This document shows, piece by piece, positions 8,504 through 52,299 of a stretch of 64,000 nucleotides of DNA (position 1 is the stretch's first letter; every line of letters begins with the position of its first letter). Position numbers and translations under genes: made by a program. The stretch is from Arenicola marina (lineage: Eukaryota; Annelida; Polychaeta; Arenicolidae): NCBI GenBank assembly GCA_964019135.1, contig OZ025257.1:17511971-17575970 (forward strand), given 5' to 3'. The notes beneath the pieces were generated by a model, which did no database searches, had not been told where the DNA came from, and worked only from the letters and a program-made list of their open reading frames with translations.

Positions 8504-9448
8504 TTAAGTGATAAAATAAGGATTTAACCTCCCCACTGAAAACCCTTGATTTTTTTTCGGTTCATAGTTGCACTGGAATATCTCGATGATCTGCCCTGCC
8601 CTCTTGGCTGACTCCCAGACGTCGCCCAACTTCTGCATCCACCCGTACCTGTTATCCGGGTAGTTGTCCAGCAGGATGATGTTGTCCACGCTGGCCATCT
8701 GCCGGAAGTTATTGAGGTCCGAGAGACACACGGGGTTCGTGTGGCCCCCGTCGATGGATATGACGTCACATTTGACTGCTGGGTTTGCCTGGCGGAACGC
8801 AGGAAGCGATGTCGTGGAATCGCCCCACGTGACCGTCAATCTCCCTGGAAACCGTTGCTGTAGGTACGCCGCCATCGGGTGAGCGTAGTTATGTTTACCG
8901 ATGTCGAAGGAGTACACACTGGTGTTGGGGTTTGCCTGTAGCCACATAAAACTACTATGGCCACCGTTAAACCCGGTCTCACACACTGTCCTGACGAACG
9001 GCGCGCGGACTAAGTGGTAATAGGCGATAAACTCCTCTATGTACTTTGCACTTGAGCCCTCCTTTATGCCACCCACCGAATTCAGCCTTTCATTAAACAG
9101 ATCATACTCCCGTTGGAACGGTTCCGGAAAAGGCGAATCCTTATCAATGTTGTTGAATAGATCCTGACAATGCGTCAAGCCGTTCGGTACAAAAGAGAAG
9201 ATATCATCCCAGTTCCATGTTTGTCTGAGCGGACTGACAAGACCCTCGGGTCGGCTGGGTGGCGGGCCTAGTACGATGGAATCCAAGGCCGCCGTATTCC
9301 GGGAGTAACCATTGTGAACCGTGCTGTACAGATACAGGACCAATAAGAGGATGAGAGCTGGGAAGACGAGCCACAGACCGACTCTGTTGGGGATACGCCA
9401 TTTTAAACTGTGGGTACCGTGTTTGCCTGAGCTTGGCTCCTGCATCAT
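8504..9448 (-). CDS. Type II membrane class I SAM-dependent methyltransferase-like protein, copy 2
   Basis: This is a single-exon ORF of 314 residues starting at the ATG of MMQEPSSG. An in-frame ATG 48 nt upstream exists, but that extension is not conserved in copies 1 and 3. Architecture: a short basic N-terminal tail; one hydrophobic segment at about residues 23-44 (LWLVFPALILLLVLYLYSTV) with no signal cleavage site, so a signal anchor; a stem region; then a Rossmann-type methyltransferase domain. Visible SAM-fold motifs are VCETGFNGGHSS (motif I, ExGxxGG), VYSFDIG (acidic residue after strand 2), VTWGDST and CDVISIDGGH, which match the Methyltransf_24-like class. The substrate cannot be told. 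A Golgi or ER lumen location for the catalytic domain is inferred from the topology. No frameshift or stop is seen. It is about 85-90% similar by eye to copy 3. A decayed N-terminal duplicate lies upstream at 10,440-10,508. Confidence 0.85.
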   Translation of the reverse strand: MMQEPSSGKHGTHSLKWRIPNRVGLWLVFPALILLLVLYLYSTVHNGYSRNTAALDSIVLGPPPSRPEGLVSPLRQTWNWDDIFSFVPNGLTHCQDLFNNIDKDSPFPEPFQREYDLFNERLNSVGGIKEGSSAKYIEEFIAYYHLVRAPFVRTVCETGFNGGHSSFMWLQANPNTSVYSFDIGKHNYAHPMAAYLQQRFPGRLTVTWGDSTTSLPAFRQANPAVKCDVISIDGGHTNPVCLSDLNNFRQMASVDNIILLDNYPDNRYGWMQKLGDVWESAKRAGQIIEIFQCNYEPKKNQGFSVGRLNPYFIT

Positions 9449-9499
9449 GTTGAATGACACGTTAGTCTTGGCCAAATTCTTCAATCCGTATAGCATGGA

Positions 9500-11999: not shown

Positions 12000-14900
12000 C
12001 AAATGTATCACATTTGGAATGGAGTTTTTCCATTTTCAAGTATAGATGTAATTCTTAACAATAATAAATATCTGATTGACCAGTATCTTGTTTTGTCCGT
12101 TTTCTAACCCTAGCATAGCTGATTTAAAATTTAAATTATCACTTATTACTTGCACATTTCTACCGTCTAGCGGTAGATAAGCTGGTCCAAAGTCGCTGTG
12201 CAACATCACATTCCCAGAACATATGTTCCAAAGTCAACCGTACACTTCAATGGTAGGCAGTACAGAGTTGTCCATGAGGTTTCTTCTGAATTAAGATTCA
12301 AGTTTTCTGCCCATTTTATTTCGTTTGTTTTCGACACTTGTAATTGTTTTACTATCACCTTATACGCCTTATTACAAATTTTGTTGTTTATCCGCATAAA
12401 ATCTAAATATTTACAGCTTACATCCGATGGTTTGGAATGCTCTTGCTGACAATACCGTCTCCATTCTTGGGGTACACCGTGAATAAGACTATAGAAGTCA
12501 GCAAAGTTTAGTTTAATATTAAACTTATGCGTAAAACTTTGCCATCCTAAAGGTGACCCGTCATCATTTAGTACATCGTTATAATATACAAGTCCCTTAT
12601 TTATAAATTCCTGCTGTCGGATAACGAGGTTGGGATTTTTCATGAAGTGGGTGTTCCCGAGAAGCATCTTAAACGGTGTTTTCGGAGGTAAGTTATTTCG
12701 AAAATGGATCCATGCTTTTACTACATCAGCCCAGAAAGGGTTAGTTATTTTTTGGCAATCTTTCAAGGATTTAGTGTCCATTTCCCAAAACAGCGATTTG
12801 TTCGTACACACCACGTCCGTGAAGAAATCTTGCCAAGCGCCGTCTGTGGTTATTAACCGACGCATCCATGTAAGTTTTAGTGATTGGAGGAATGACGGAA
12901 TATGAGTCAGATTAACACCTCCATCTTCAGCCTCCTGTGCCAAACGGGTGAGCGAGATTTTAGACTTTTTCTTACGCCATATAAAAGACCGAATCATACC
13001 CTCTAGCTGACTAATATCGGCTTTACTAGGGGAGGGGAGGACTGACAGCACGTGGACCAGTTTAGGCAAAGCCAGGGTCTTAGCAACAGCCAAGACATAG
13101 ATCAGGACATATTTTATCTCTGCCTTTTGGCTTTCTTCCCAACCACACGGCCTTCGTTTTGTCCACATTCATCTTCAAACCCGAACATTTATAAAACGAA
13201 TCAAGGATCCCTAGCGCAGCACGTAGAGATGATTCACTGCCGTCCAACAATAAGAAAGCGTCATCGGCATATTGCCCTAACTTATATACTTTCTCTCGAA
13301 TTTGGATACCTTTCACGTCAGGGCAGTTTTTGATGGCCATGGCTAGAGGTTCCACCGCAAGAATAAACAAGTATGGGGACAGGGGGTCACCCTGTCTGCA
13401 ACCTCTTTCCAGCCTAAAGAATTCAGAAAATATACCATTGTTTATGACGCAGCTGTTCGAGTCTTCGTACAACAACATATGGTGTCTTATAAACTCATCC
13501 CCAAAACCATAGGCCTGTAGAAGCTGTGTAGTATAATCCCAGCTTAAAGAGTCAAACGCCTTTTCGAAGTCAACGAATAATAATAGCCCTGTTTTGTTCT
13601 GTTCTCTTAAATAGTGCATTAAATCGTATACAATTCTAGTATTTTCTCCTATGAAGCGATTCTTTAAAAAACCTTTCTGGTCCGAACTGATGATCGTTGG
13701 TAAAATATTTTTCATCCTTATTGCAAGCACACCAGCTAGAACTTTGTAATCTGCATTAAGTAAAGTAATAGGCCTCCAATGTTTCAGATATTGTCTAGGT
13801 TTTTCTGGTTTAGGTAAACAGGTAATGATACCTTGTCTTTGTGTTATAGATAGAGTACCCTGCTGACATGCATGTCTTAGACTGTTCATCAGATGTATTC
13901 CAATGTTCTTCCAAAAGAACTTATAAACGTCTATTGGGAGTCCGTCGCTCCCTGGACACTTGTCGTTTTTCATATCCTATGTAAGTTGTTGGACTTCTTC
14001 CAAAGTAATTTCTCCATCACATATAGCCTTTTGCTGTTCTGAGAGCTGCTTTATATACTTGGAATTTAAAAACTGGTTCATGTCGCCTTTCGAAGACATA
14101 TAGTCACATTTTGAATATAATTGCTGTAACACTTATAAAAAGTCATTTGCTCGACCAAGATGTCATTTGGGTCCATCAACTCTTTGCCATTAACATCTAG
14201 CTTAGTGATTAATTTATTTATATACTTTCTTTTCTCAAGGCTGCAAAAATATCTGCTGGGCTTCTCTTCTTCCTCATAATATTTGGCCCGGGCTCGTAAC
14301 ATTGTGGCCTTTATCTTGGGGGAGCGTAGCTTTTCTAGTTCAAAACTTAACTCATCGCGCTTGGCTACCAAATCAGCGCTCTCTGCTGCATTTAGATCTA
14401 TTCTCATATCTAGCTTTTCTATATCTTGCTCTATCCCCCAAATCTGCTTGTCTGGTGTCTTTTTCTTAAACGAACTATAACTGATAGTTTTACCGCGAAT
14501 TTCCATTTTCAGCATTTCAAAAAAGAGTTGGTCGTTAATGACTTTCACACCTGGTGTCGCCCTATAGTGTTTCTCTACGTTTGCAATACAGTCTTTAATT
14601 AGCCTAACGTATTCCTTATCGTAAAACAGAGAAGTGTTTAATTTCCAGAATCCCTTCCCTTATTCAGCTGTTAGAATGTCTATATCAATAGTAGTAAGAC
14701 AATGGTCCGTTCTATACCCAGGCCGTATTGTGGCACTTTGTGTAACGGCATGCAGATCTGGAGAAGAGAGGTAAAAATCCAGCCTAGCTCGCTGCGTTTT
14801 GCACTGTTGATTGACCCAGGTGAAACGTTTAGTATCTGGGTGTATAACCCTCCAGGTATCTATGAGTTCTAAGGACTCTATCATATTAAGTACCCGGCTC

Positions 14901-15374
14901 CTAGCCTTTATATTATTTTCTCTTTTATAACCGTGTGTGTCTAGTTCCTGTTTTAATACTAAATTACAGTCTCCGCAAAGCAGCATGCTAGCGTTGCCCA
15001 TACTGTCTACTTTTTGCTGTAAGTTTTCAAAGAACTCTGGGGTGTCCTTATTTGGACCCATTCAAAGTGACATCCAATACCAGAAGATTACCAGAGTCAT
15101 CACTCTGGACACCGTGAACCTCATACTGTACGCGTTTCGTTATAATGATCGCAACGCCCCTAGACTGTGAACAGGAAGAGTTGCAAAAACACTCACATCC
15201 CCACTCGTCTCTTAAATCTGCCTGAGTTTTTGTATCAAGGTGAACATCTTGGAGACAATAGACCGATAGTTTTTGCCCCTGTAGCCATTCGCTCACATCT
15301 CTCCGTTTTGACGTTGAAGCAATACCTCGTACATTCATACATCCACATTTTATACCAGTACTCATCGGGGCCAT
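12000..15374 (-). pseudogene. LINE ORF2: endonuclease-reverse transcriptase, disrupted
   Basis: Domains lie in order on the minus strand. The APE-like endonuclease spans 15,374-14,660 (NVRGI, LQDVH, MLLCGDCN for GDFN, RLDFYL, RTDH). A linker follows at about 14,548-14,078. The reverse transcriptase spans 13,973-13,080, with NDKCPGSDG, ITLLNADYK, QKGFLKNR, FVDFEKAFD, RQGDPLSPYLF and the catalytic YADD at residues 235-238 of that segment. The C-terminal domain spans 13,168-12,206, and a cysteine/histidine motif HMFWECxxxxRLW at about 12,228-12,190 lies in another frame. Breaks visible are a frameshift near 15,055, an in-frame TAA at 14,660-14,662, a frameshift near 14,100, a TAG just before the RT segment (about 13,976), a frameshift near 13,130 and one near 12,240. 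The motif set fits the L1/Tx1 group. It is not functional. Confidence 0.9.
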
Positions 15375-42345: not shown

Positions 42346-43210
42346 ACTGCGAGATGCCGGCATACTGACAGGAAAAGCTTTGTCCTGACTTTGGCATAAG
42401 TCGCCATACTGTATTTCAGTGCTTTAGCCTAACTGAGACGAGTCGCCATCATATCCTGGATTTGGCAGAAGTCAAAATACTACAATTCAGAGCTTATCGT
42501 AACTTTGGCATGCGTCGGTATACCGGCAGGAAGAATTCTGTTCTAACCCCGACATGTCCGAACATTGTATGGCAGGGCTTTCGTTTGCAGCGCTGTATCC
42601 TTACTTAGACATTCGTGGGCCATTACAGCGCTTATTTCAGAACATGGAAGTGGTTCCTTTGACATAACTCAAAGAAGTTAAAACGTTTATTTCAATTTTA
42701 TTTTATTACCCTTCAGATATACATTGATACCAAGTAATTAATAATACCTGAATAAATATACATAAAAAATAATGTTGAGATTATGGCCTTATTGCTAAGT
42801 CACTAGGCCGTAGTGTGCAAGAAGAGAAGACCGGTGGCTATACTTGATCATATATATTTTATATATATATAAATATTCGAAAAGAAACCACAAACCATTC
42901 GCACCCCTCTCAATATTTTATAATTATGTACCCGCTTAGTTCGACATAATATTAACGTAGTCCGGTAATGCATCATTTTTCACTTAATGGTAGATGTATC
43001 TCTCCGCCAAGCTGCGTGCTCTGGTCATATAAACCGACAGATGTGATTTACCCCTGTTTGCACCTGGTCACTGAAGCAAACGCGTACCAATTAAAAGACT
43101 TTGAATTGACGCAATGACATGCAATATGTTTTTTTACCAAGACACCGAAATACCATTGCCTTCTATGTATGATTGAACTGTGAAATCTCATATATATGTT
43201 AATAAAAAAT

Positions 43211-43241
<31 letters not shown>

Positions 43242-43276
43242 ACCCTGTCATCAGAATTAGGCATCCCAGTTATGCG
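42346..43276. repeat. Left flank of methyltransferase module, Unit C, first part
   Basis: Degenerate 41-bp repeats (42,346-42,600) are followed by the AT-rich block that aligns with 7,540-8,240 and 1,440-1,960. The block is cut at 43,279 by the 7.8-kb insertion and resumes at 51,077. A (TA)n tract lies at 43,217-43,241. Confidence 0.75.
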
Positions 43277-43689
43277 CATATTCCAGCATTTGGCAGACCG
43301 CCATCTTAGGCAGACCAAACAGTGGTCTGCCTAATTTTCCAGAAGTCGTTACTCATGTGAACGTGTCTGATTTCTCTATATTCGGTGCTTACCGTGAACC
43401 CAGACGCCTACATAATTACAGAAACATAAAAACTTTTAATATATTCTTAATCTAATTGAACTGTGAAACATTTTAGCATCTTAGAATTACGGTCGTGTAT
43501 ATATACAAAAAGTTAAAAACCAGTCTTAAGTGCCCCCCATTAAATTCGCTATTATTTACAATTTGGGGTATATATCACAATTGTGAAGGGAGAATTATAA
43601 TATTGCTGTCTTTTCGCATCTTTTTTGACCGATCCTCATGAAGTTATGCCCAAAACATAAAAACAGGCCAATTTGTACACCATCGTGTG

Positions 43690-43821
43690 CCGCGGTGTAC
43701 ATCTTTCTGACGTGTGAACATCGCGCATGCGTACTCGCATTGTCAATACCAAAATGGCGACAGTTTAGCAGTCGAAGCGTCGCCGTCTGCACCTCATTCT
43801 CGCAAGTGGACAACAATCCAG
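43690..43821 (+). other. Candidate non-coding first exon of the gene in the insertion
   Basis: This is a locally GC-richer stretch with two CGCGCATGCG-like sites. A minimal upstream ORF ATGGCGACAGTTTAG (M-A-T-V-stop) lies at about 43,752. The exon ends AATCCAG followed by donor GTAAGA (43,822). The start is not determined. Confidence 0.35.
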
Positions 43822-44951
43822 GTAAGACTAGCTTTCATATAGTTATACTTTGCATTCGGGTAAATAGTAGATTATAGCGATCAATGTATGCCTAGTCGAA
43901 CTGTAGAAACAACGAGATAAAGTGACATTGCTGACTTTATGACCTGTGACATTGGCAATCCGATCGTTCGCCGGTTCAACACCGAAAGGCGACAAATTGA
44001 CAGTCAAACAGACGTCAAGCAACGATACAGTTTTAAATATTGCAATTTTTAGTAGATCTAATATTCTACAATATTCATGAAATGCTACAATTTTCTTATC
44101 TCGCAGTCGCTAATCCTAGTTGATCGGGTTTCAGAAATATTGTCTGCAAAGTCTATTCGTGTCCGTGACCTTGGCTTGTTCTAAATTGTTCATGAATGTT
44201 GTTGACATGGTTGTAGGCCTGAAGGTTGTTTAGGTTAGGCTAACAGGAAAGTTAGAGGGGTGGATCTAGGCCTATACTATAGGAAGGAGGTTATAGGATG
44301 GACGCACTGCCCCCCCCCCCCCCACCACCCCCTCGAAAACCTGAGCATATAGACAACTGTAAAAATCAGGCTTTTCGACGAAACAACTGATTCACAAAGT
44401 CAGTGACATTTTGTAGATCTATGCAACCCATTGCCATTGGCAGTGGCAGATCCAAGCCAAGCCGAGGCAAGCTGGCAGTGGGGGGTTATACATACTCCTC
44501 TCAAGTTAGAGGATGTCAAAGACTATTAAAGTAAAACACATTTTGATGACCCTTATTGACAAAGATATTTTTTCTCCTCAAAATCAATGCTATTTAAGGT
44601 GCAGACCAGCTCCAGCCCCAAATGAGATAATGGCTAAATGAGTGATGACATGCATATGTATCTGTTGGAGGGGGTTAGGTGGTGTTTACCATAATGAACA
44701 AAGTCATAGGTCAAAAAGGAAAAAAAATGCAACCTGACACTGCTACATGGTATAGGTAATTTCAGTGTTCATGCTACTGTCTCTTGGATAGATAGAATAT
44801 ATAGATTTAATTGCTGATTTTATTACATAGCGATATACTTATCATAAAATAAATAACCCACAGTCAACATGGTCAATATACTGGTATCATTGATGCTTAG
44901 ACCTAGTGTTGATCTGTTTGGTTATTGGAACAACCTTTTTATTTGTTTCAG

Positions 44952-44989
44952 AATTAATTTCAATGGCACTTTCAAGAGGAAAGCAGCTT
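44952..44989 (+). CDS. Candidate exon encoding MALSRGKQL
   Basis: The acceptor TTTGTTTCAG precedes a 38-nt exon with ATG at 44,963, ending in phase 0 at donor GTAAGT. It joins in frame to the 27-nt mini-exons (FKASIMPKK) and then to LKDMSPVDDARMWSGQRRL and a stop in the exon at 47,222. The predicted product is 37 residues with one mini-exon, plus 9 for each extra one. It may be an upstream ORF and not a real protein. Confidence 0.35.
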
Positions 44990-45269
44990 GTAAGTCTTAT
45001 GTATATAATTCTGAAACTTGTTTTTATTCTCACTTAATTGGTTTTGTCAAAATAGCTGTTGTGTTCTATAATTAGATATCTTATTGTTTTGACCAAGGGA
45101 TCTATTAAATTCAGTTGGAAACATGGCCAGAAATGTGGCATCTGTGTTATAGTATATAGCTATATTATTAGGCCCAGACTCTCCTTGAGTAAATAAGTTA
45201 AAGTATTATATTTATATCTATATCATAAGCATATGGGAGCAATAAGCACATGAAGCCTTTAACATGTTT

Positions 45270-46445
45270 AATCATAATTGAATTTTGTTTCTTGTTATGG
45301 CAGTATAACAATTATATGGAATAATCTGTATTTTCAGTTCAAAGCTAGCATCATGCCGAAGAAAGTAAGTATATGTATATCTGGTATATATGTACTCAAC
45401 ATTACTGCCAATATATATAAAGATAAGCAGGTTTACAATTAAATTAGTAAAATTTCTTCTGAAGTTAATCTATCATGTCTTTGGACTAATTTTAGCTTTA
45501 CCATGTTTACAGAAACAAAACCTGTTATAATGGTAAAACCTATATACAATCAACATATCATCTAATCATAATTGAATTTTGTTTCTTGTTATGACAGTAT
45601 AACAATTATATGGAATAATCTGTATTTTCAGTTCAAAGCTAGCATCATGCCGAAGAAAGTAAGTATATGTATATCTGGTATATATGTACTCAACATTACT
45701 GCCAATATATATAAAGATAAGCAGGTTTACAATTAAATTAGTAAAATTTCTTCTGAAGTTAATCTATCATATCTTTGGACTAATTTTAGCTTTACCATGT
45801 TTACAGAAACAAAACCTGTTATAATGGTACAACCTATATACAATCACCATATCATCTAATCATAATTGAATTTTGTTTCTTGTTATGACAGTATAACAAT
45901 TATATGGAATAATCTGTATTTTCAGTTCAAAGCTTGCATCATGCCGAAGAAAGTAACTATATGTATATCTGGTATATATGTACTCAACATTACTGCCAAT
46001 ATATATAAAGATAAGCAGGTTTACAATTAAATTAGTAAAATTTCTTCTGAAGTTAATCTATCATATCTTTGGACTAATTTTAGCTTTACCATGTTTACAG
46101 AAACAAAACCTGTTATAATGGTACAACCTATATACAATCAACATATCATCTAATCATAATTGAATTTTGTTTCTTGTTATGACAGTATAACAATTATATG
46201 GAATAATCTGTATTTTCAGTTCAAAGCTAGCATCATGCCGAAGAAAGTAAGTATATGTATATCTGGTATATATGTACTCAACATTACTGCCAATATATAT
46301 AAAGATAAGCAGGTTTACAATTAAATTAGTAAAATTTCTTCTGAAGTTAATCTATCATGTCTTTGGACTAATTTTAGCTTTACCATGTTTACAGAAACAA
46401 AACCTGTTATAATGATACAACCTATATAAAATCAACATATCATCT
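45270..46445 (+). repeat. Four tandem 294-bp units, each with a 27-nt ATG mini-exon
   Basis: Unit starts are at 45,270, 45,564, 45,858 and 46,152, exactly 294 bp apart and differing by only a few bases. Each contains TGTATTTTCAG, then a 27-nt segment ending ATGCCGAAGAAA, then GTAAGT. Segments are at 45,338-45,364, 45,632-45,658, 45,926-45,952 and 46,220-46,246. The third has a weakened donor (GTAACT) and GCTTGC for GCTAGC. Because 27 nt is nine codons, including any number keeps the frame. Confidence 0.9.
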
Positions 46446-47221
46446 AATTATTGACATTCTGGCCAACTAGTACTGATTACCTAAAAAAACTGGTATAAAT
46501 CTTCCTTAAAAATGATATGATTAATATTTAATTAGTTTAAAAGTACTGGATGATGGAAATTAATTATTCCCACTAAAAACATAAATATGTTAGAAGGCTA
46601 GCTAAAGTTAGGGTAATATTAAGAATACCAGTACATATATCCAGAAAATATTTGTGACATACAGTTTGTCAATTAAAGAACATGTTGTAGATAAAAGTAA
46701 AATGATATAGCAGCTAGTCCAATGATATCTTTGATAAGTTGTACATACTTAGACCAAGTATATGTTTTTTTCACACAATGAAGTAATGTAAACGAAATTT
46801 CAAGATTCCTAAAACAGGAACATGATTTTTGAAATATTTTATCAGCCTAATTCATAAAACAAAACTCACATTATAATAAACTATGAACAAATTAATAGCA
46901 GATAAAAGAAAATAGGGAATATATATATCCAGGGTAGTACATTAGGCATTTTGGAAAGACATTTTCGAATTTCCGAGAGTTGTGATATGTATATATTAAC
47001 TTTTGTAATAAAGTTAAATTAACATATAGTTAATAGTAATATAATACTTAGTATATATTCATAGAATATATATAGTTATATAGTTGCATGAATTTGGAAA
47101 TATGCCAGTTATGGTATTAAATAACCTGAACCTGCCGTTAACAGTGTCAATTGTCATGGTAATGACATTGAGAAATTATAGGTGAATGAGTGAACTTAGT
47201 TATCTGTACATTTCTCTTCAG

Positions 47222-47310
47222 CTAAAGGATATGTCACCAGTCGATGATGCAAGGATGTGGTCTGGACAAAGACGACTTTAGGATCGGCTCAGTTTCAAGC
47301 GGCGGTGGGG
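47222..47310 (+). CDS. Exon with start codon of the 141-residue ORF
   Basis: The acceptor TTTCTCTTCAG and donor GTAAAG bound 89 nt. ATGATG at 47,244 opens a frame, MMQGCGLDKDDFRIGSVSSG, that ends in phase 1 and continues through three more exons. Upstream of this ATG the same frame is closed by TAA at the exon start, so initiation must be here. A second frame, entered from the mini-exons, stops at 47,279-47,281. Confidence 0.5.
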
Positions 47311-48896
47311 GTAAAGAACATGTTTACGTTATAATAAAGCAATAATTTAAGATATGCATCCAAATCGATTGTATGATGATTACAACACAAATAATATTGT
47401 TCTATGATTTATTTATGCGTGTGGGCGCCCCAAGGTTTGTTTAAATCGGGACCACCGCACGGGATATCTTGCCCCAAGATGCCATCTTGTCGGTCAACAT
47501 AGCACTTGTAATGTCTATTGTTTACTTTTATATACCGATATTAACTAAAACTTTATCTTATCATGTTTTATCTCATTAAAGCTGTAGATATCGTGGGTTA
47601 ATTATCATTGTCGAAGCGCCTAATGCGATGTGAACCGGTAACATTTCGAATTATACGTGAAAACATGTACCGGTAGATGATTTATGATTATCTATACTTA
47701 ATTATCTATAAGAAAATATAATTATGTAATGCTTATGACCCGTTCAGTAGTGATTTGAAAGCGGATAGTGTTCTGTATAATTCTTTTATAATCTGGGGTA
47801 GGCAAACGACCATACGGAACATACGACATAAATACATTTTACAGTTATGAGTAAATGTGCCTGAGTTACCTTTTTATTAGTTTTGAAGAAGAACCGGTAC
47901 CCCTATTTTATCTAGTCAGTCTCTTTTTTTCTTTGCAAACCACTTTTAGCGAAATTACGTTATGTTTTTTAGCTTCATCTGAACCGACCAGCGCCAATTA
48001 TGAGGAAGTCACTGGTGAATATTTTTTTTTTTTTAAATACAGTAACAATATAATCTATTTGGGTCGAGATTCAGGTATAATTAAGATTGGAAAAGCTGTA
48101 CAATTAAGACCAGATATAGTTTGGTAATTAAATACTGTGTTCTGCATAATAAAGACTAGACTTGCTATTGGTGTAGTATATACATATAAATTAATGTAGT
48201 TTCAGTGAGATGGTTCAAGAAAGACACCGACTCCTCAAGGCGTCATTCGGCGACTTCTTTTCATGCAGGCCTGACGCCAAAGACAACAAAGGCAATCTTC
48301 CAAGTATGTTTCCGTTTGGCATCATATGTTAATGCATCTTTTTCCTGTGGTTGTCATCTAGTTATTTTCATATTCTACTGAAGTACACATTAACTGTTTG
48401 TGTATACGCTAAATTTAATTCCATTTAGGGTGTTTTTAATGGAAATACATTTAGGTTCTTAGTGCATAAAACTAACCTTTTCTTCATTTATTGTACGCAA
48501 TAAGTCATAGGGCATGCTGTTAAGCCACTTTTTTTGGATAAACTGGTACATCATGTGGGGAAAGTGCCGCTTTGCTATCTACATCGTCATCAAAATTTGG
48601 GCATATGATGTTTGCATGTCATTATGTATGTGGAAAATTGTTGTGTAATGCAGTTTTAACGGACATTTTAATTTCAGGCAAAAGGAGAAATTCTGCAATT
48701 CATAGCCTCACAGCAGCCTATGTGTCTCCAACAACTGACGGAAATGGCTGCATATAAGAAAACAAGAACTAAGCTCTTCAACAAAAGGAAGACAATGCGA
48801 CTAAAAATAATTCAGTCGTTACATGAACTCCTAGGTCACCCCCCTCCCTCACCATCATCTTTGATCACCTCATCTCTCACACTATCATCATCCTAG
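47244..48896 (+). CDS. Unrecognised 141-residue spliced gene
   Basis: Exons 47,244-47,310, 47,973-48,014, 48,206-48,303 and 48,678-48,896 join with phases 1, 1 and 0 without a stop, giving 141 residues. The N-terminal part is Gly/Ser-rich. The middle reads YEEVTVRWFKKDTDSSRR. The C-terminal part has a likely helical, lysine-rich region, ILQFIASQQPMCLQQL and KTRTKLFNKRKTMRLKIIQS, ending HPPPSPSS and a serine-rich tail. The last 20 or so codons and the TAG come from the start of the minisatellite, so the C-terminus is recent or variable. No family is recognised, no signal peptide or membrane segment is seen, and the basic C-terminus suggests nucleic-acid binding (inference only). AATAAA at 50,420 is the next poly(A) signal. 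Confidence 0.5.
47973..48014 (+). CDS. Exon 2 of the 141-residue ORF
   Basis: The acceptor TGTTTTTTAG and donor GTGAAT bound 42 nt encoding SSEPTSANYEEVT, phase 1 on both sides. Confidence 0.45.
48206..48303 (+). CDS. Exon 3 of the 141-residue ORF
   Basis: The acceptor GTAGTTTCAG and donor GTATGT bound 98 nt encoding RWFKKDTDSSRRHSATSFHA and then GLTPKTTKAIFQ. Confidence 0.5.
48678..48896 (+). CDS. Terminal coding exon of the 141-residue ORF
   Basis: The acceptor TTTAATTTCAG is followed by 72 codons and TAG. The coding part crosses from unique sequence into the minisatellite at about 48,830; HPPPSPSS is repeat-encoded. Confidence 0.5.
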   Translation, partial: AKGEILQFIASQQPMCLQQLTEMAAYKKTRTKLFNKRKTMRLKIIQSLHELLGHPPPSPSSLITSSLTLSSS

Positions 48897-50135
48897 GCCA
48901 CCTCCTCTCCCTCACTATCATCATCCTAGGTCACCTCTCCCTCACTCACACCATCCTAGCTCACCCCTTCTCACTATCGCCAGCCTAGGTCACCTCTCCC
49001 TCACTATCACCATCCTATGTCACCCCCTCACCTTCACCATCGTCCTAGGTCACTTCATTTTTCTCACTATCACCATCCTAGGTCACCCCCTCTCTCTCAC
49101 CATCAACCTAGGCACCTCCTTTCCCTCACTATCACCATCCTAGGTCACCCCTCCTCCCTCAACGTCACCCTTGGCCACCTCCCCTCCCTCACCATCATCT
49201 TAGGTCACCTCTCCCTCACTCACCCCATCCTAGGTCACCCCTTCTCCCTCAACATCATCTTATGGCACCTCCTCTCTCACTATCATCCTAGGTCACCTCT
49301 CCCTCACTCACACCATCTTAGGTCACCTCTCCCTCACTCACACCATCCTAGCTCACCCCTTCTCCCTCAACATCATCCTAGGTCACCTCTCTCTCACTAT
49401 CACCATCCTAGGTCACCCCCACTCCCTCACCATCATCCTAGGCACCTCCTCCCTCTCACTATCGCCATCCTAGGTCACCTCTCCCTCAATATAACCACCT
49501 TAGGTCACCCCCTCACCTTCACCATCGTCCTAGGTCACTTCATTTTTCTCACTATCACCATCCTAGGTCACCCCCTCTCTCTCACCATCAACCTAGGCAC
49601 CTCCTTTCCCTCACTATCACCATCCTAGGTCACCCCTTCTCCCTCAACGTCATCCTTGGCCACCTTCTCTCCCTCACCATCATCTTAGGTCACCTCTCCC
49701 TCACTCACCCCATCCTAGGTCACCCCTTCTCCCTCAACATCATCTTATGGCACCTCCTCTCTCTCACTATCATCCTAGGTCACCTCTCCCTCACTCACAC
49801 CACCCTCTTGCTCACCATCATCCTATGGCACCTCCTCTCCCTCACTGTCATCCTAGGTCACCCCCTCTCCCTCACCGTCATCCTAGGTCACCTCATTTTC
49901 CTCACTATCACCATCCCAGGTCACATCCTCTCCCTCACTATCACCATCCTAGGTCACCCCTTCTCCCTCACTATCACACAGCCTAGGTCACCCCCCTCTC
50001 TCACTATCATCATACTAGGTCACCCCCTCTCCCTCACTATCACCATCCTCGGTCACCCCCTCTCCCTCACCATCATCCTAGGTCAATCCCTCTCTCTCCC
50101 TATCACCATCCTAGGTAACCTAGGTCCTATCTATA
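48832..50135. repeat. CCTAGGTCACC minisatellite with 486-bp higher-order repeat
   Basis: About 40 imperfect units of 26-45 bp of the form CCTAGGTCACCCCCTCTCCC + TCACTATCACCAT. A block of about 290 bp starting near 49,027 recurs at 49,513, an offset of 486 bp. All plus frames are largely open (for example 49,017-49,628) because the unit lacks stops in several phases; these are not genes by themselves. Confidence 0.92.
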
Positions 50136-50770
50136 ATTAAATAATTTCATGAATTTCATGCTCAGTGCATTAGCTATAGCTTGTACACATATGTTTCTAA
50201 AAGACAGCATGTTTGTTAAGAATTTTATCCGCAAAATATTTGTCCTCACGGCGATTAATGGTTTGCTTCATATTGTCCTACTTCACAATTGAATCAAATC
50301 AAGTAGGAACTATGCACCATTGTGTTATTACATCAATGTTATAACTTAGAGAGCTTAGACAGTTGATCATATGATAAATTGCAAAACCATTGTATTTCTT
50401 GTAGTTAAGTTGTCAATTGAATAAAAATGACCATTATACCTACACCTGAATATCGGTTCATTCACATTTTATCGACGAGCTACCATTATCGCCCAAAAGG
50501 TCCATTTACCTCATGCAGCTCTGTATGGCATCACGTACGTCTCTTAATCTGACCTATAAGACTCCTATACTATTACGCTCGCACAACCATATATCAAATA
50601 CAAGAAATCAAATATTTCGTTTTATGCATTTTGCAATGATTGCATCTACTCTCCAAATATGAAACATTGAGATATGTTACATATGCTTCGGAATACGTAT
50701 ACCGTATTCTTCTGGTGATGAAGATGGATATATACGTGTTCTCATTGTAATTGGAATACCCGTATATACA
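50136..50770. other. Non-coding, with AATAAA
   Basis: AATAAA at 50,420 could end the transcript of the gene in the insertion. Nothing else is recognised before the subterminal repeats begin at about 50,770. Confidence 0.4.
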
Positions 50771-51074
50771 CTCGGTCTGCCTATTGATGGAATATCCGTA
50801 TATACTCGGTCTGCCTATTGATGGGATTTAAGTAAACAGCCTGGTCTGCCTAATGCCCAGCTAACACTTATATTTTTTAAGCAGACCAGATATCATGTAT
50901 ATTAGTTAAATATAAATATTGTAAGTGCTATTTACCTTGTCCTTTGTTACAGACAGATTAACTAGTCTAATGGTGCAAAGTAATACCATAAAAACATAAT
51001 CATTGACATTTGTGGAATATATTGAGATGGTCTGCCTAATGCCTAATTGTAAGCTTGGTCTGCCCAATGCTGGA

Positions 51075-51076
<2 letters not shown>

Positions 51077-51117
<41 letters not shown>

Positions 51118-51318: not shown

Positions 51319-52260
51319 CTAACTGATAAAGTAAGGATTTAACCTCCCTACTGAAAACCCTTGTGTCTTTTCTGGTCGATAGTTGCTTTGAAATATCTCG
51401 ATGACCTGCCCTGCCCTCTTGGCTGACTCCCAGACGTCGCCCAGCTCCTTCTTCCACCTGCCTTTGTCCGGGTAGTTGTCCAGCAGGATGATGTTGTCCA
51501 CGCTGGCCATCTGCCGGAAGTTATTGTAGTCCGCAAGACACACTGGGTTTGTGTGGCCCCCATCGATGGATATGACGTCACACTTCACTGCGGGATTCGC
51601 TTGGCGGAACGCCGGAATCGATGTCGTAGAATCGCCCCACGTGACCGTCAGTCTCCCTGGAAACCGTTGCTGTAGGTAATCGGCCATCGGGTGTGCGTAG
51701 CCATGTTTACCGATGTCAAAGGAGTACACAGTGGTGTTGGGGTTAGCCTGTAGCCACATAAAACTGCTGTGGCCACCATTAAACCCGGTCTCACATACCG
51801 TCCTGACAAACGGCGCTCGCACTATATGGTAATAGGCGATAAACTCTTCTATGTAGTTTGCACTTGAGCCCTCCCGTATGCCACCCACCGCCTTTAACCT
51901 TTCCCTAATCTGATCATACTCCCGTTGGAATGTGTCAGGAAAAGGATTATCCTTGTCCACGTTCTTGAATAGATCTTGACAACGCGTCAGGGCGTTCGGT
52001 GCAAAAGAAAAAATATCATCCCAGTTCCATGTTTGTCTGAGTGGACTGACAAGTCCCTCGGGTCGGCTGGGTGGCGGGCCTAGTACGATGGAACCCAAGG
52101 CCGCCGTGGTCCGGGAGTAACCACTGTGACCGGTGCTGTACAGATAAAGGACGCCGAGGAGAACGAGGGCTGAGAAGACGAACCACAGACTGACTCTTTT
52201 GGGGATACGCCATTTTGAACTGCGAGTACCGGGTTTGCCCGAGCTTGGCTCCTGCATCAT
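51319..52260 (-). CDS. Type II membrane class I SAM-dependent methyltransferase-like protein, copy 3
   Basis: This is an intact single-exon ORF of 313 residues from the ATG of MMQEPSSG; the frame opens four codons earlier but only at GTG. The signal-anchor segment is at about residues 25-43 (LWFVFSALVLLGVLYLYST), followed by a proline-containing stem (GPPPSRPEGL), WNWDDIFSF, then the methyltransferase fold: VCETGFNGGHSS (about 155-166), VYSFDIG, VTWGDST, CDVISIDGGH, DNIILLDNYPD. The C-terminal IEIFQSNYRPEKTQGFSVGR is conserved with copy 2. Compared with copy 2 there is one residue fewer after LLDNYPD (KGRWKKEL for NRYGWMQKL). Absence of introns, with flanks duplicated together, argues for DNA-level duplication of an intronless gene. 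The substrate is unknown. Confidence 0.85.
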   Translation of the reverse strand: MMQEPSSGKPGTRSSKWRIPKRVSLWFVFSALVLLGVLYLYSTGHSGYSRTTAALGSIVLGPPPSRPEGLVSPLRQTWNWDDIFSFAPNALTRCQDLFKNVDKDNPFPDTFQREYDQIRERLKAVGGIREGSSANYIEEFIAYYHIVRAPFVRTVCETGFNGGHSSFMWLQANPNTTVYSFDIGKHGYAHPMADYLQQRFPGRLTVTWGDSTTSIPAFRQANPAVKCDVISIDGGHTNPVCLADYNNFRQMASVDNIILLDNYPDKGRWKKELGDVWESAKRAGQVIEIFQSNYRPEKTQGFSVGRLNPYFIS

Positions 52261-52299
52261 GACGAATAACACGCGTTAGTCTCTGCCAAATTCTTCAAT

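Follow-up and report, generated by a model that had tools for sequence, protein, structure and literature searches.

Here we describe a 7,837-bp (~7.84-kb) insertion in the annelid Arenicola marina that belongs to a young multicopy family bordered by TA microsatellites and carrying what looks like a spliced transcription unit. It lies in a 64,000-nucleotide stretch of contig OZ025257.1 (assembly GCA_964019135.1, positions 17,511,971 to 17,575,970), hereafter the window, where it occupies positions 43242..51078; comparison of 22 two-ended copies fixes both ends (Table 1). An earlier note on this DNA had recognised a mobile insertion with a spliced unit inside it, and the copy family bears that out. 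Our preferred interpretation, held with even confidence for and against, is a young DNA transposon, non-autonomous and with asymmetric ends of a Helentron-like kind, that would be mobilised in trans into TA microsatellites with an orphan transcription unit aboard.

Searches of the 867-Mb assembly (762 contigs) establish the family. The coding exons, used as protein queries, gave 75 exon matches (E <=0.001) at 27 loci, and all 75 fall inside the 27 element copies when their coordinates are read by eye. A 661-bp cargo segment has 26 full-length matches, one of them from base 2, at 95-100% identity, besides one partial match and a remainder of short ones. Searching with the left end returned 29 matches, 25 of which start at its first base. 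Both ends are present in 22 copies, each about 7.3 kb or longer. These counts are lower bounds, and they under-represent copies or relatives in which just one end is shared. Divergence of the copies from their consensus is 0.6-1.9% across 46720-48828, depending on the segment. Beyond the worm's own genome, the element matched no plasmid, viral contigs gave no match by protein or by end pattern, and Rfam gave none at its gathering threshold.

The true ends lie outside the pair of 20-bp inverted repeats that the earlier note took for termini. Across the 22 copies the left 38 bp and the CA beyond the right repeat recur at unrelated loci, so both are element sequence and not flank; the exceptions are one copy without the first left bases and without a left TA tract, and one with CC on the right. 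The boundaries once placed at 43280..51076 thus move outward, the supposed terminal inverted repeats become subterminal, and the CAT read as a target duplication proves to be part of the element, with (TA)n beyond it. An inverted repeat with a matching 3-bp flank in a single copy can mislead about element ends. The true left and right ends do not form an inverted repeat.

TA tracts border the family almost without exception. The left tract runs to 4-31 units in 21 of the 22 copies, the copy with the damaged left end being the sole exception, and the right tract is present in every copy, a single G interrupting it after the first unit in two. Outside the element, tracts of at least four units account for 0.34% of the window. 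On C260 two copies stand head to tail with a single TA tract in between. At another locus (L045, 9500-9780) two family right ends, one of them damaged, face each other over a short TA-rich stretch.

The two 20-bp repeats pair at 19 of 20 positions, and the best of 300 dinucleotide shuffles of both end regions reached 16, which upholds the one-mismatch repeat first described. Its absence elsewhere in the genome had been named in the earlier note as refuting an insertion, and the search went in favour of one: it found 48 exact sites and 252 with at most two mismatches, against 1 for a reversed control. One hundred of the 252 were listed, including every site with 0 or 1 mismatch; eight two-mismatch matches among them lie outside known copies and are scattered. 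The GGTCTGCC motifs cluster subterminally as had been noted, eight of nine window occurrences falling in ~640 bp of element-end sequence. A DNA fold of the left 104 nt gives a perfect hairpin with a z score of -5.1, equalled in stability by none of 200 shuffles. In the copy at C10:2.36 Mb (L085) the 34-bp GGTCTGCC end unit is repeated 43 times, versus twice in the window.

In the window the insertion interrupts one unit of a duplicated block. Homology between the interrupted unit, C, and its uninterrupted counterpart, B, breaks near 43165 in C and 8047 in B and restarts at about 51096 and 8287, respectively. The claim that a repeat block was split therefore stands insofar as homology stops and resumes, while unit B does not give the empty site to the base: between the breakpoints lie 114 bp in C and 239 bp in B that lack a clean alignment. 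Unit B has a TA tract at the insertion site. Immediately to the left of the TA tract, 21 bp of C agree with unit B at 18 positions (20 of 2000 shuffles do as well), and the element's outer 38 bp show no similarity to it (768 of 2000 shuffles score equally). Early support from unit B for the first set of ends (26 bp left of the repeat, 6 of 1000 shuffles) was overturned by the 22-copy comparison; the same test gave 16 of 1000 with 36 bp, 30 with 45 bp, 406 with 70 bp and 64 without the CAT.

The cargo looks like one complete transcription unit, to judge from its CpG-rich promoter-like stretch, short exons, minisatellite in a putative 3' untranslated region (UTR) and poly(A) signal. Joining the four coding exons of Table 1 reproduced the 141-residue product of the earlier note, and its GT..AG exons, mini-exon array and minisatellite were recovered as well. 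Exon GC content is 0.46 versus 0.33 in the surroundings, a value equalled in 3 of 20000 random placements. Within the promoter-like stretch, strings at 43723 and 43751, which we take to be an NRF1-like and a YY1-like site, are kept in all nine copies whose left half was examined. Were transcripts to begin at exon 2, its first ATG would open a different short frame; one of nine copies has a changed donor consensus at this exon. The mini-exon sites hold in nine copies, with a deviating fifth donor base in the window's third unit.

Tandem arrays within the cargo vary in length from copy to copy. Among eight copies counted for each, mini-exon units number 1, 2 or 4 and minisatellite units ~30 to 107, two of the copies in the latter count being truncated on one side. 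The copy at C3:36.78 Mb (L052, 187-5066) holds a 61-bp unit repeated 80 times, each unit repeating the 3' splice acceptor of the exon at 48206.

The splicing layout seems largely to have persisted among the copies, while the protein reading bears no sign of selection. Exon counts cover 25 copies, leaving out loci L034 and L035. Each of seven splice dinucleotides survives in 24 or 25 of these copies, the departures being one GC donor and one copy without the first coding exon (L015); in the copy at C9:7.76 Mb the later coding exons found no match. Divergence is lower in two coding exons (0.6 and 0.9%) than in the introns (1.1-1.9%). The ratio of nonsynonymous to synonymous changes (N to S) is 2.40 in the 19 copies without a frameshift and 3.67 in all 25, around a neutral expectation of 2.92 drawn from the intron spectrum. 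In 18 copies the reading remains intact as far as the alignment extends, and in seven it is disrupted, four of these having the same 5-bp exon deletion. The 141-residue reading thus looks to evolve neutrally.

The cargo is best read as a passenger of unknown origin, an orphan transcription unit. Protein searches with the 141-residue product in two length windows found no homologue (none at E <=10 in one, none at E <=1 in the other), nor did PDB sequences contain one, and the joined exon readings matched nothing in Pfam above cut-off. A weak match to HAUS2 (E 0.12 and 0.08) failed the cut-off and was rejected. The earlier description of the element as gene-capturing was not borne out: genome searches by DNA or by protein (E <=0.001) found no donor gene beyond the family, a more distant donor being possible. 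Pack-type transposons are transposable elements that carry exons and introns. Our element resembles them in that respect and differs in that the genome searches turned up no donor gene. One intron piece, 48431-48604, is 70-84% similar to other genomic sites.

Because no transposase was recognised inside the element, its movement would have to be supplied in trans. None was seen by eye in 54 frames of at least 45 residues, and a Pfam run on three frames and the joined readings only gave none, in agreement with the earlier note. Candidates for a longer autonomous form did not survive inspection. Nested inserts at L039 and L051 have sequence in common, in opposite orientations, and L047 holds a frame that we named by eye as resembling ORF1 of a long interspersed nuclear element (LINE); all were taken as other repeats.

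Rolling-circle mobilisation by a Helentron-type Rep/helicase is our tentative first choice of mechanism, at somewhat less than an even chance, because the end spacing on the element's minus strand equals that reported for Helentron-derived HINE elements. According to the available text of PMC4067079, HINEs have a subterminal inverted repeat lying 2-4 nt inside the 5' end and ~38-60 nt inside the 3' end, a palindrome ~8-35 bp from the 3' end, an unchanged target site and, in some copies, tandem repeats. Read on its minus strand, our element has subterminal repeats 2 nt inside the 5' end and 38 nt inside the 3' end, and a 10-bp palindrome separates the latter repeat from the 3' end. Its internal tandem repeats, a target duplication that is unreadable and the presence of Helitron-like proteins in the genome add to the likeness to HINE and DINE-1. 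An enzyme of this type would carry the element into (TA)n microsatellites; a lepidopteran Helitron-like family cited in the same text disrupts (GAAA)n tracts.

Helitron-like genes are present in the genome. Of its 53 Helitron_like_N matches, some are fragments of a single gene and 24 lie in open frames of at least 2000 residues. These 24 frames span 2013-2345 residues, one with an internal stop; examples are C19:11792046 and C8:19654800. In two Helitron-like 3' regions, mutual similarity stops near a GTGTCTA..TAGACAC hairpin and CACATT. A single 13-mer with two mismatches to the element's left end lies at L091, beyond that locus' Helitron-like 3' end.

Several observations weigh against a Helentron-like transposon with a retained transcription unit. 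The two Helitron-like 3' regions gave no BLAST match to the element at 1e-5 (5' ends and other loci were unread), and no second element type bearing the 20-bp repeat appears among the 100 sites listed of 252; no partner with matching ends emerged from these two sources. On the minus strand the terminal 59 nt are predicted to fold no more stably than shuffled sequence (z +0.78), so that the HINE-type 3' hairpin was not seen there, and the strong hairpin sits just inside the subterminal repeat instead of at the terminus. The target is (TA)n on the right in 22 of 22 copies and on the left in 21 of 22, whereas HINEs enter TT or T-rich sites. The element's repeats measure 20 bp, those of HINEs 11-15 bp in the available text; in oyster HINEs, according to what is available of PMC7492417, the repeats are 11-12 bp and the targets T-rich. 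At ~8 kb with introns, and with no predicted terminal hairpin, our element also departs from the HINE pattern. As for the cargo, splice-site conservation is only mildly above chance at such divergence, the other two coding exons diverge as introns do (1.5-1.6%), and the ATG of exon 2 is lost in two of nine copies.

The chief alternative, possible though doubtful, is a cut-and-paste (DDE) non-autonomous element, of the Mutator or some other superfamily, with TA microsatellites as its target, its left 38 bp being an acquired or degenerate module. Transposase-binding ends of such an element could be what the 20-bp inverted repeats and the GGTCTGCC clusters represent. Plant Mutator-like elements (MULEs) offer a close parallel in target choice: in the portions of PMC4486113 and PMC5907723 available, MuTAnT, Micron and SaTar are non-autonomous MULEs with variable TA-tract flanks, some of their copies chained through the microsatellite, and our family looks alike in these respects. 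The plant elements, as those portions describe them, end in true terminal inverted repeats, and their non-autonomous forms measure ~0.2-1.9 kb, whereas ours has asymmetric ends and resides in an animal genome. Its real ends are not mutual inverted repeats, the repeats lying 38 and 2 nt inward, and no target duplication can be read within (TA)n once the CAT match is assigned to the element. None of the listed frames was recognised as a transposase and no partner appeared at the 100 listed repeat sites, DDE families not having been searched genome-wide.

An autonomous or once-autonomous transposon of an undescribed kind is improbable. It would represent an undescribed animal lineage that targets TA microsatellites, with ends unlike those of known elements and a small spliced orphan gene encoding a mobility or accessory protein. 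The gene spans the element almost end to end, the protein searches returned no homologue, all 75 genome matches sit in element copies, and the listed repeat sites revealed no second repeat-bearing element type. Against this, 141 residues is small for a recombinase, the N to S ratios straddle neutrality and the reading is broken in seven of 25 copies. The earlier note had offered an undescribed type as one option; that option keeps some probability, as the ends were linked to no transposase gene, but the layout is Helentron- or HINE-like and the (TA)n targeting is like that of plant MULEs.

Two further explanations are very unlikely. A host gene or segment duplicated with its flanks would suit the gene-like layout and the two copies on C3 (21.31 and 21.62 Mb), whose common flanks resemble a segmental duplication; the idea is refuted for the whole family, in which 22 copies stop at the same bases amid mostly unrelated flanks and TA tracts. 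Retroposed RNA copies, for which one might cite three loci that retain the right part only, one of which breaks off at a TA tract, fit just as poorly: introns between coding exons are present in the aligned copies (parts missing in two), which argues against a sense-strand origin, both ends are present in 22 copies, and the broken end has no TA tract in two of the three partial ones.

The TA-microsatellite-targeting families named in the available portions of PMC4486113 and PMC5907723 are all from plants, and an animal precedent is possible. With at least 22 two-ended copies and variable tandem exon arrays, a recent animal family would allow one to ask which enzyme chooses TA repeats. It would also allow one to ask whether transposons can retain a spliced transcription unit without a detectable host donor.

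Table 1. Features of the element and its borders in the window (positions within the 64,000-nucleotide stretch)
Feature	Position	Strand	Basis
(TA)12 tract, left; target or carried microsatellite	43218..43241	.	at least 4 TA units there in 21 of 22 copies
Whole element, putatively non-autonomous	43242..51078	.	22-copy comparison
Outer left segment, 38 bp, taken for flank in the earlier note	43242..43279	.	common to copies at unrelated loci
10-bp palindrome TATGCGCATA, between left subterminal repeat and left end	43271..43280	.	direct reading; stable hairpin not predicted
Left subterminal inverted repeat (left terminal repeat of the earlier note)	43280..43299	+	38 nt from left end
Perfect hairpin, two inverted GGTCTGCC-type motifs	43306..43334	.	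DNA fold of left 104 nt
CpG-rich promoter-like stretch and likely non-coding first exon	43600..43821	+	sequence reading
Predicted exon 2 with ATG, short upstream frame	44952..44989	+	exon reading
Tandem array, 4 x 294 bp, with a 27-nt GT/AG mini-exon per unit at 45338, 45632, 45926 and 46220	45269..46450	+	
Predicted exon opening the 141-residue reading	47222..47310	+	GT..AG exon joining
Predicted coding exon	47973..48014	+	GT..AG exon joining
Predicted coding exon	48206..48303	+	GT..AG exon joining
Predicted last exon: end of the reading, then minisatellite as 3' UTR, AATAAA at 50420	48678..50440	+	exon end inferred
Minisatellite, 30-33-bp units	48829..50121	+	repeat reading
Five GGTCTGCC motifs, two inside 34-bp tandem units	50774..51064	+	motif and repeat reading
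Right subterminal inverted repeat (right terminal repeat of the earlier note)	51057..51076	-	2 nt from right end
(TA)17 tract, right	51079..51112	.	TA tract adjoins right end in 22 of 22 copies

The window also holds other repeats. Duplicated blocks at 8504-9496 (minus strand), 51319-52272 (minus strand) and ~1.9-3.5 kb are 82-86% alike in DNA, and the first two, which were tested, hold Methyltransf_24 genes. The window's methyltransferase protein has 78 matches, those named coming mostly from annelids (Paralvinella, Capitella, Lamellibrachia, Helobdella) and one from a cryptophyte. Large collinear repeats pair 20-37 kb with 53-64 kb. At 12206-15061, on the minus strand, lies a LINE-like stretch of several frames, one of which contains a reverse transcriptase domain (PF00078).

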